Assembly (NCBI GenBank): GCA_022447665.1
Contig: JAKVAQ010000016.1
Span: 1 to 64,000, forward strand
Length of the DNA stretch: 64,000 nt
Origin: Crocinitomicaceae bacterium
Lineage (GTDB): Bacteria > Bacteroidota > Bacteroidia > Flavobacteriales_D > Crocinitomicaceae
Reading direction: 5' to 3'
In this document: piece by piece, positions 34,489 to 37,713 of the stretch
Layout of the letters: each line of letters starts with the position of its first letter
Numbering within the stretch: position 1 is the stretch's first letter
Program-made: the position numbers and the translations under genes
The notes under the pieces: model-generated
Database searches by the model: none
What the model saw: only the letters and a program-made list of their open reading frames with translations
What the model was told of the DNA's origin: nothing

Positions 34489-35478
34489 ATGAATAGCGCT
34501 CCTGAAATATCTATTATTACGCCTGTAAGAAATGGAAGTATATATTTAACTGAATGTTTTCAGTCAATTATAAAACAAAGCTTTACGAATTTTGAATGGA
34601 TCATCATTAATGATCATTCTACGGATAATACTCCAGAACTCTTAAATGACTTTAAAGCTCATGATTCTCGCATTCACGTCTACGAAAATCAAGGTAAGGG
34701 AATTATTGACGCACTTAATACGGCAACAGAACTCGCTAGAGGTATATTTATAACTCGAATGGATGCTGACGACAGAATGCCGGTTTATAAGCTTGAAAAC
34801 TTACTGGGTCTCTTAGAAAATCAAACCAACACTGTAGCGACAGGACATGTTAAATACATTGAAAACGAACACCTTAAGGCGGGATACATGCGGTATGCCG
34901 ATTGGCTGAACCTAATGTGTGATAATCATTTGCATTATCGCGATATTTTCAGGGAATGTCCCCTAGCTTCTCCTGCATGGATGATGAGAAAAGAAGATTT
35001 TGTAAGGATAGGTGGCTTCAAGGACCTTGAATATCCTGAAGACTATGATTTTGCTTTTAGATGTTTTGAGAATAGTGTTAAGATCGTAAGTACTTCTGAT
35101 GTGGTTCATGAATGGAGAGATTATCCGGAACGAACGTCAAGAAACGACCCAAATTATGCAGACAATAGCTTTATAGATTTAAAACTTAGAAGATACTTTC
35201 AACTATTTTATTCGTTGACGGAACCTCTCACTGTATGGGGCGCAGGAAAGAAAGGAAAGGAGATTGCGCGAAAGTTAATTGAACGAGAAATAGAATTTGA
35301 TTGGGTGTGTGATAATCCAAATAAAATAGGCGTTGATATCTACGGAAAAAAGCTAAAACACTACTCTACCTTAAAATCAGGACAAGCTATAATCTACGTT
35401 ACTTCAACCGAAGACCAGGAAACAATACATGAATACCTCGAAAATCATCCAGATATTAAGTTCCATTGGTTCTGTTAA
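34489..35478 (+). CDS. Glycosyltransferase family 2 with C-terminal Rossmann-like domain
   Basis: A 329-residue protein. The GT-A catalytic domain (about 1-235) shows ISIITPVRNGSIYLTECFQS, IINDHSTDNTPELL, the metal-binding DxD as RMDADDRMP, and the acceptor segment WMMRKEDFVRIGGFKDLEYP. The last about 80 residues contain VWGAGKKGKEIARKLIE and CDNPNKIG, a nucleotide-binding-like module found fused to some Bacteroidota glycosyltransferases. It transfers a sugar to an unknown acceptor at the cytoplasmic membrane face. It stands alone, followed by the repeat-containing gap. Confidence 0.88.
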   Translation: MNSAPEISIITPVRNGSIYLTECFQSIIKQSFTNFEWIIINDHSTDNTPELLNDFKAHDSRIHVYENQGKGIIDALNTATELARGIFITRMDADDRMPVYKLENLLGLLENQTNTVATGHVKYIENEHLKAGYMRYADWLNLMCDNHLHYRDIFRECPLASPAWMMRKEDFVRIGGFKDLEYPEDYDFAFRCFENSVKIVSTSDVVHEWRDYPERTSRNDPNYADNSFIDLKLRRYFQLFYSLTEPLTVWGAGKKGKEIARKLIEREIEFDWVCDNPNKIGVDIYGKKLKHYSTLKSGQAIIYVTSTEDQETIHEYLENHPDIKFHWFC

Positions 35479-35498
35479 ATCCTGACTCCAATTACACT
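35475..35498 (-). repeat. Detached copy of a SpoIIE gene 3' tail
   Basis: On the minus strand these 24 bases read SVIGVRI-stop and match 19 of 24 bases of the real SpoIIE tail at 35679-35702 (CVIGVRV-stop), with the stop codons aligned. The repeat block lies between the two copies. Confidence 0.5.
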
Positions 35499-35500
35499 GA

Positions 35501-35621
35501 CAGCCTCGTCTTTTTAGACCTTCCCGGTCGAGACTCGGTCCTTCGGAAGCAGTGCTTCGCATACAGCCTCGTTTAATCCGTCTTGGTCAAACGGCACTCG
35601 GTCCTTCGGAAGCAGTGCTTC
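35501..35621. repeat. Two 58-base direct repeats with hairpin-forming cores
   Basis: Units at 35501-35558 and 35564-35621. Each starts with the same 9 bases and ends with an identical 26-base block (35533-35558 and 35596-35621) that contains the palindrome GAAGC-AGT-GCTTC. The 23 bases between differ, but each has its own short inverted repeat (GACC/GGTC in the first, CCGT/ACGG in the second). Confidence 0.8.
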
Positions 35622-35640
35622 CTCTCATCATCGATTTGCT

Positions 35641-35660
35641 CCCTTCGACTCCGCTCAGGA
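35641..35660. repeat. Intergenic REP-like sequence common in Bacteroidota
   Basis: CCCTTCGACTCCGCTCAGGA matches a short sequence I know to be widespread between genes of Bacteroidota. Its function is not established. Confidence 0.55.
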
Positions 35661-35678
35661 TAAACTACTCGCAACTCG

Positions 35679-37621
35679 TTAGACCCTAACTCCAATAACA
35701 CATACGTCATCAAGTTTCTCGTAATCGCCCATCCAGGCTTCAAAAGCTTGATGAATAATTACCTCCTGTTCTCTTAATGGCAAGGCATGGCCTTCCATAA
35801 GTTTTTTCTTGAAGTTCTTCGTTTTTAATTTTTTACCCTTTTCTCCTCCGAATTGATCAGGGTAACCATCACTACTCACATAAAAAACATCATTCTCATG
35901 TATTTTAATGGTATGATTAGTAAAAGGCTTCCAATGTGAAAACTGAGCAACTGGTTGTTTATCAGTCTTTTTCTCATAGAGGCATACTTCGCCTTCCTCA
36001 AAACCAAAATCCATATCATCCGTTTCAATGGACTTATCACGAATCAACCAAAGAGGGTTGTTTGCTCCTGAGAACTCTAGAATTGAATTCTTTTTATCAA
36101 GCAAACAAAGAGAAATGTCCATTCCATCTTTAATTTGCTCTTCCGATTTTTTGAATGTTTCAATTACAATTTCCGTTACTTTATTCAAAATATCGGCAGG
36201 TTTTCGTAATCCAAATTCCCTAACAGCTCTATTCAATACATATGGCATACAACAGAAACCATTGCTCTTGGCACACCATGGCCATTACAATCGGCAGCAG
36301 CAAAGAGTACTCTTCCGTTATCCAATGGCTCAACCCAGTAAAAGTCTCCGGCTACAATATCTTTTGGTAAATACATCACAAAAGAATCACCTAAAACATC
36401 CTCCATCCACTGTTCTGGAGACAAAATCGCCTGCTGTATACGTTTTGCGTAGTTGATCGAATCCATGATTTCGATTCTCTTCTCTTCTATCTCTTGCTTT
36501 TGATGGGTAATTTCCTCATTAGCCTTTGCCAACAGGGCGTTTTTCTGATGTTTATCTCGATAAACTTTGATTAAAAATACCGTTATGATTAAAATGATTA
36601 TGAAACCGATAATATTGAAGTTCCGAGATTCTATTACTGTTTCTACGAAGTCTGATTCTGGTACAACTACACCAACGATAAAGCTTTTCCCTCCGCCAAT
36701 TTCGTATTCTTCAACATCACCCCACCAATGTTCATCATTCGCTAAAAATCTAAATGAAGTATCAGCCTCCAGTTCCTTAGAATAAACCTTCATCGCCTGC
36801 GTAATAGGTTCCATCCCTAAAGACTCATATGGTTCCAAAATGGCATCGTTGATTTTTTCTTTCGAGTCAAAACCAGAATTCGCTGGCACGCCAATCACAC
36901 GTCCATCTTGGGTTAGAACAAAAACATACCCATTATCTGAAATTTCCATAGAGGATGTAAAGTCAGAGATATTTGAAAGCAGCACATCGAATGCTGTTAT
37001 CATAGTTCTGTCTTCATCTCTGTTTTGCCATGCCGTACTGATTGTAATACCCGGCTCCTTAGTGGTAAAAAACTCATAGGGATCTGTCCAATTCAATTCT
37101 TTCAGTTCATTGTTCTTAGCATTTATAAACCAAGGTCGCTCACGAGGATCATACTTTTTTGGATACGCTCTTCTCCCTAATTCTAAATCGCCATCTTCTT
37201 TGCTCCAAAATACTTGAACGGTCATACTGTCTATACTCGCTTGAAATGTACTTCTCGTTACCCAGCAAGAGTCTGCATCCATTAACATATACTCGTCCCC
37301 TTCAATAGTGGCTAGCAATATAGATGAAACATGCTTTTTGTTCGAAATAATCGCTTCGAACTCTTGATTAAAATCCTGAAAGTCATTCAGATAAAAGGTT
37401 CTGTTTTCGTGCGACTCTATATTCACGATCAAATCTTCTTTAATGGGATTGAAACAGTTATCCATTTCAAAATTCACTGAAAATAAAGACTTGTGAACCA
37501 TCTCTTTACAGAGCACCTCTACCGTTTTCGAAAGATTAGCTAGGATAAATGCAAATACAGCGATAATACCTAAAAGAAGTAGGTAAATGATTCGTGAAGA
37601 TAAAAACTTGATAGCCTTCAT
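35679..37621 (-). pseudogene. Cache-type SpoIIE/PP2C phosphatase gene, frameshifted
   Basis: The 5' part, from ATG 37621 (TTG 37630 also in frame), encodes a membrane helix, a large periplasmic Cache-like sensor (YPKKYDPRERPWFINAKNN, ISDNGYVFVLTQDGRVIGVP) and a second helix. The linker SINYAKRIQQAILSPEQWM and the first half of the SpoIIE domain follow. The frame then stops at 36233. The rest (VLNRAVREFGLRKPADILNK to DDVCVIGVRV) is in another frame down to 35679. Restoring one A near 36240 would rejoin them into about 645 residues. The normally constant TGHGVPGAM is NGHGVPRAM here. Loss of function is likely unless the shift is a sequence error. Confidence 0.82.
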
Positions 37622-37713
37622 AATAAGCAAGACTAATGCAGAAAAATCTCGACTACAAATGATATTTATTCCTCCCTTATTTGGTTAAGAAAGCTTTTGA
37701 TCGTAATATTGCG

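Follow-up and report, generated by a model that had tools for sequence, protein, structure and literature searches.

Results

Gene context of the repeat

In the window, a 64,000-nucleotide stretch of a Crocinitomicaceae genome, the repeat lies between the end of a SpoIIE-type phosphatase gene on the minus strand and a convergent glycosyltransferase gene (Table 1). The two parts of the SpoIIE gene occupy different frames, and the split between them, near 36233-36248, is either a real frameshift, which would make the gene a pseudogene, or an assembly indel. Read along the minus strand, the functional gene end is followed by a 37-nt spacer with the B block, by GAGCAAATCGATGATG, by a 125-nt hairpin insert, and by TCAGTGTAATTGGAGTCAGGATTTAA. 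When the flanks are joined without the insert, they form an in-frame SpoIIE end, EQIDDVSVIGVRI-stop, which is a second, diverged copy of the gene's own 3' end. The repeat units, which the initial annotation had described without this gene context, lie inside the displaced end. Its stop codon (35475-35477, minus strand) overlaps that of the glycosyltransferase gene on the plus strand, so the displaced, downstream end is probably the original, native end of the SpoIIE gene. The space between the functional and displaced ends, only 37 and 125 nt, contains no open reading frame (ORF) of at least 80 amino acids.

Table 1. Features at the repeat locus, in window coordinates.
Feature	Coordinates	Strand	Remarks
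Convergent glycosyltransferase gene	34489..35478	+	stop codon 35476-35478
Displaced SpoIIE 3' end, right part	35475..35500	-	TCAGTGTAATTGGAGTCAGGATTTAA (..V S V I G V R I stop)
Insert with both hairpin units (the repeat of the initial annotation)	35501..35625	-	125 nt
Unit A2	35501-35563	-	
Unit A1	35564-35626	-	first base as drawn belongs to the flank, outside the insert
Displaced SpoIIE 3' end, left part	35626..35641	-	GAGCAAATCGATGATG (E Q I D D V..)
37-nt spacer	35642..35678	-	begins directly 3' of the stop codon; terminal REP-like block AGTTTATC-CTGAGCGGAGTCGAAGG, second hairpin type 'B'
C-terminal ORF of the SpoIIE-type phosphatase gene	35679..36248	-	PF07228, E 5.7e-07; end DDVCVIGVRV-stop, the functional gene end
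N-terminal part of the same SpoIIE gene, other frame, dCache-like	36233..37630	-	PF02743, E 1.8e-11; 44.5 bits, slightly below the cut-off of 45

Structure of the repeat units

The insert consists of two tandem units with a period of 63 nt. A 26-mer occurs exactly at 35533-35558 and 35596-35621, with a start-to-start spacing of 63 nt, and a 9-mer, ACAGCCTCG, at 35500-35508 and 35563-35571. The 23-nt core matches twice in the window and not once in 100 shuffles. Thus, the outer blocks are identical between units, as the initial annotation had it, and the centres differ as it described, the two 24-nt centres having the same base at only 9 positions. The units are also in tandem, but not head to tail with a length of 58 bases; each comprises 59 nt and a 4-nt spacer, GCAT. 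Inspection of the unit ends by eye revealed no GTAG or CGTC tag. A promoter and terminator scan of 35400-35750 found neither a promoter nor a terminator-like site, an Rfam scan of 35300-35800 gave no match up to E = 1, and a 216-nt region had no match among plasmid and phage records at E 1e-5.

Folding of 35501-35624 as RNA gave z -2.61 on the minus strand (2 of 200 shuffles as good) and z -3.45 on the plus strand (0 of 200). For the single halves, the values were -0.30 (70/200) and -2.46 (4/200) as minus-strand RNA, and -1.11 (24/200) and -2.64 (3/200) as DNA. The expectation that the sequence folds better than shuffled sequence therefore holds for the pair of units, but not for one half alone.

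Base pairing is maintained while the bases change. When ten pairs were compared across eight aligned units (without the partial copies from C14 and the second of the identical C45 units), 79 of the 80 cells were paired and 8 of the 10 pairs had changed on both sides; the pairs, drawn from the two hairpins, were chosen by eye from these same sequences, which favours them. No permutation of the 3' arms reached 79 in 10000 trials (mean 64.4, maximum 75). The C1 units, for example, have TT/AA in place of CC/GG as the closing pairs of the second hairpin. This bears out the earlier observation that pairing is kept across differing centres, and it suits DNA hairpins as well as RNA.

Further copies of the unit

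The initial annotation had tied its proposal to the presence of other copies in the genome, and these exist. There is one further exact match to the core, at C31:37988, and BLAST revealed diverged copies on contigs C14, C22, C41 and C45. Altogether, seven more units are found, namely one each at C31, C41 and C22 and two at C45, all at SpoIIE ends, and two on C1; C14 carries partial copies. The insert, designated A, interrupts the SpoIIE end at the identical codon position, between GATG and TC or in a diverged form of this site, at C8 (the window locus), C31, C41 and C45 (two copies). The A hairpins have the same orientation as the SpoIIE gene at C8, C22, C31, C41 and C45. No gene-end copy was seen around the two C1 units, one of which, C1a, is antisense to the preceding SpoIIE gene.

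A query made from the C45 copy found no A in 98 relatives, none of which is of the same genus, so a true empty site is not among them. Scans with an A-core pattern gave no hit in viral contigs and one in genome contigs, a set that possibly excludes our genome; this hit, in a Caldilineaceae metagenome-assembled genome, was taken as chance. The exact REP-B pattern occurs in 1 of 59 genomes, our own. We abandoned the hypothesis that an end copy lies next to every TGAGC..TCGAAG REP, since 20 of 30 loci tested, out of 33 matches, had no repeat with a score of at least 11.

A module common to distant SpoIIE paralogues

Over the 160 codons before the end, the C45 protein is 43% identical to that of C41 and 42% identical to that of C31. 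In the 130 nt after the stop codon, however, C45 is 78% identical to C41 and 81% identical to C31 (78-81% among C41, C31 and C45), with other pairs in this comparison ranging from 55% to 78%. A scan of 903 SpoIIE pairs, which is the cleaner test of mobility, gave seven pairs with a downstream score of at least 30, all within C8, C22, C31, C41 and C45; the shuffle maximum was 16 and the best pair outside this five-locus group scored 21. That genes with 42-43% protein identity have a module after the stop codon in common indicates that the module moves. Of the two natures first suggested for the repeat, the non-autonomous mobile repeat accords with the module common to distant paralogues, while the structured RNA finds no Rfam match or terminator-like site in its favour. 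A leader, AGTTTAT(C/G), followed by a hairpin occurs at SpoIIE loci, at this genome's tRNA-Gln, tRNA-His, tRNA-Met and tRNA-Ala genes, and at a tRNA-Asn gene in another genus.

Displaced ends at other SpoIIE genes

PF07228 matches number 44 in this genome of 4.06 Mb and 57, 18, 35 and 40 in four relatives. In the first 400 nt downstream, a peptide-level SpoIIE-end motif is present at 6 of 43 SpoIIE genes in this genome, at 4 of 30 SpoIIE loci in relatives, and at none of 50 control frames, these being other stop-to-stop frames of at least 150 codons in the window, at least two of which are themselves SpoIIE genes. The motif has four matches in the whole window, all of them SpoIIE ends. A DNA-level scan for end copies was less clean, reaching a score of at least 12 in 7 of 43 SpoIIE genes but also in 2 of 50 control frames.

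In six pairs of functional and displaced ends, there are 41 differences, distributed 13/1/27 over codon positions 1, 2 and 3 (59 sites each); the pairs were picked because they differ and are not independent (C31 appears twice, and C41 and C31 are related). The changed codons comprise 24 synonymous and 12 nonsynonymous cases, compared with about one quarter synonymous for random single changes. Left out of the comparison were C34, C22, L189 and L201, together with the ends at C45 and C67 and a third end at C41, which are exact copies. In these six pairs, therefore, most of the divergence probably dates from a time when both ends were coding. A check for target-site duplication found exact 21-nt end copies at C41 and C67 and diverged, coding-like copies elsewhere; simple readings as a target-site duplication or an att site are weakened by the coding-like divergence and by the absent ORF.

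The displaced ends vary in preservation. The copies at C10:31040, C34 and C22 are decayed or short, that at C22 being only 9 nt. One of the six genes with a motif match, C10:66821, is followed by a longer SpoIIE remnant, which suggests a gene duplication there. At locus L201 in genome G020, a SpoIIE gene end is repeated at least three times downstream of the stop codon with a spacing of 117 nt.

Displaced ends at tRNA genes

Many tRNA loci show the same order as the SpoIIE loci, that is, gene, hairpin spacer and gene-end copy. For about a quarter of this genome's tRNA genes (10 of 39), the 3' part of the gene is present again within 700 nt downstream, in a copy that reaches the 3' end, compared with 13 of 1938 swapped controls. 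In nine of the ten cases, the copy starts at -15 to -18, inside the T-loop; the other starts at -38. Applied to other genomes, the same score gave 4 of 55 in G004, 4 of 37 in G010 and, in a count that covers 10 loci only, 2 of 19 in G058, with 2, 3 and 1 of these, respectively, reaching the 3' end. Displaced ends behind so large a share of tRNA genes point to small hairpins that are mobile, insert at the ends of genes and leave a new end upstream of themselves. A degenerate end copy at tRNA-Asp is an additional case, and tRNA-Ala forms a tandem array. The E. coli tyrV locus contains three tRNA 3'-end copies, each beginning within the T-loop, at the junction of TTCG and AATCC.

A tRNA array on contig C33 (L072:500-2300) contains genes that by eye seem interrupted by additional sequence, among them Leu-TAA, with hairpin-like stretches 5' of the anticodon. 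Behind four tRNAs of this array, the 3' end of the respective gene is repeated.

GIY-YIG nuclease genes

Small GIY-YIG-like ORFs were found by tblastn behind tRNAs at six loci (L127, L129, L151, L158, L168 and L212), and Pfam PF01541 confirmed those at L127, L129, L158 and L168 and another at L092. At L129, L158 and L168, one in this genome and two in relatives, the ORF lies between the tRNA and its interrupted copy, in which a palindrome by eye sits in or replaces the anticodon arm. At L092:1100-1560, on contig C1, the ORF lies between direct copies of a REP hairpin, GGCACTTCGACAGGCTCAGTGACC... GGCTGAGCCTGTCGAAGCC. Genome G058, of the same genus as G010, lacks the L168 ORF, and the alignment of the two loci stops at the tRNA 3' end; because the flanks beyond the tRNA do not align, G058 does not offer a clean empty site. 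A tblastn search of the SpoIIE loci examined detected no GIY-YIG gene, which makes the window's connection to the nuclease an indirect one.

Discussion

The 178-bp repeats at E. coli tyrT/tyrV (RtT RNA, RF00391) resemble the present elements in that the repeats after the tRNA each restart with the tRNA 3' end. They differ in spacer sequence, and the pattern comes from one locus in one E. coli record; the RtT covariance model has four matches in that record and none in the window or at this genome's tRNA-Val locus. Rickettsia palindromic elements are palindromes inserted into genes that stay in frame inside coding regions. Here, in contrast, a second gene end stands in front of the insert.

An anatomical parallel comes from fungal mitochondria, where, according to excerpts of PMC3630166, the 3' end of a gene has been replaced by one carried on a mobile endonuclease ORF, with the native end left downstream. 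The cases described there are atp6 in Allomyces and atp6, atp9, cox2 and nad3 in Glomus, and the nucleases are of the LAGLIDADG type, with GIY-YIG at atp9 (PMC3630166). The order described there, gene, new 3' end, mobile part and displaced native end, probably applies here as well, and in both settings the ends differ mainly at third codon positions, with greater divergence at the DNA than at the protein level (PMC3630166). Unlike the cases described there, ours are in a prokaryote and involve SpoIIE and tRNA genes. The window has the two gene ends, functional upstream and displaced downstream, but hairpins only and no endonuclease ORF between them; such an ORF is present between the ends at the three tRNA loci named above. 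We class the window structure with end-replacing elements as a candidate, by likeness of anatomy, rather than as a proven member. Among the matches listed in a literature search of titles and abstract openings, with subscription papers outside its scope, there was nothing on gene-end-replacing hairpins, or on GIY-YIG elements located at the ends of tRNA or SpoIIE genes in bacteria.

Our best explanation, held with modest confidence, is that the repeat consists of a REP-like element with two hairpins, A, which is non-autonomous and present here in two tandem copies. It would belong to a family with constant insertion points close to the 3' ends of genes, where a replacement end is left. The hairpin-ended modules of this family would insert upstream of the 3' end of conserved genes such as SpoIIE and tRNA genes, by a few codons in the former and by half a T-arm in the latter. 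The module would bring or create a replacement 3' end with which the host gene works on, and the old end, shifted downstream, would persist as the remnant behind the hairpin. We infer that insertion is an active process rather than a by-product of duplication and repair.

There is a faint hint that a GIY-YIG nuclease makes the cut and that hairpin-only copies are its non-autonomous derivatives. A broader proposal, which we offer tentatively and consider unlikely, is that bacteria harbour a class of GIY-YIG-driven homing elements that cut conserved 3' ends of genes (the T-arm or anticodon arm of tRNAs, codons of SpoIIE genes). Such elements would supply a new end to repair the gene, and the old end would remain downstream of a hairpin; their ORF-less derivatives would include many REP-like palindromes as well as the E. 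coli tyrT/RtT repeats. If true, the hairpin repeat would mark a bacterial process that replaces gene ends, the tyrT/RtT repeats and a set of REP-like palindromes would gain a testable origin, and 3' ends would be swapped in a large family of signalling phosphatases.

It is possible, although we think it improbable, that duplication came first. Slippage or unequal crossing-over would have made useless 3'-end copies, in which REP-like palindromes accumulated later because insertion there is harmless, and no end would have been replaced. Plain duplication would also be expected to give the exact end copies at C67, C45 and C41, and it accords with the SpoIIE-end array at L201, the longer remnant after C10:66821, the tRNA-Ala array, and an end copy at L195 with no hairpin seen. 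The coding-like divergence between ends is nevertheless unlike that of a neutral pseudo-copy, and neither the module common to distant paralogues nor the constant position of the junctions, inside the T-loop and at a single SpoIIE codon, fits with this order of events.

The common module is also what gene conversion among SpoIIE paralogues would produce, had it spread a 3' end with a structured 3' untranslated region whose hairpins act as RNA in mRNA stability or processing. The covarying hairpins 3' of stop codons, in gene orientation at the five SpoIIE loci, agree with such a role. Conversion would, however, have replaced the old end instead of leaving it downstream, and it does not account for the antisense C1a unit or for tRNA loci with the same order; given also that no terminator-like site or Rfam match was found, we regard this explanation as quite unlikely. 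REP elements associated with RAYT (Y1 transposase) genes, which are GTAG- and CGTC-tagged according to excerpts of PMC3733652, are likewise short palindromes between genes, with arms that are conserved and tips that vary. Unlike the REPs described there, the present units carry no such tag at their ends, are accompanied by gene-end copies and were not found beside the RAYT genes of this genome. Mobilisation by RAYT is, in our judgement, very improbable, even though the genome has REP-like hairpins and three RAYT-like Y1_Tnp genes (L074-L076). The chemistry of RAYT/IS200 transposition involves no target duplication, which counts against it. No A core or TGAGC..TCGAAG hairpin lies within about 1.2-1.5 kb of the three genes; the flanks of the L074 gene hold two copies of another palindrome, GCGAATC..TTTCGCG.
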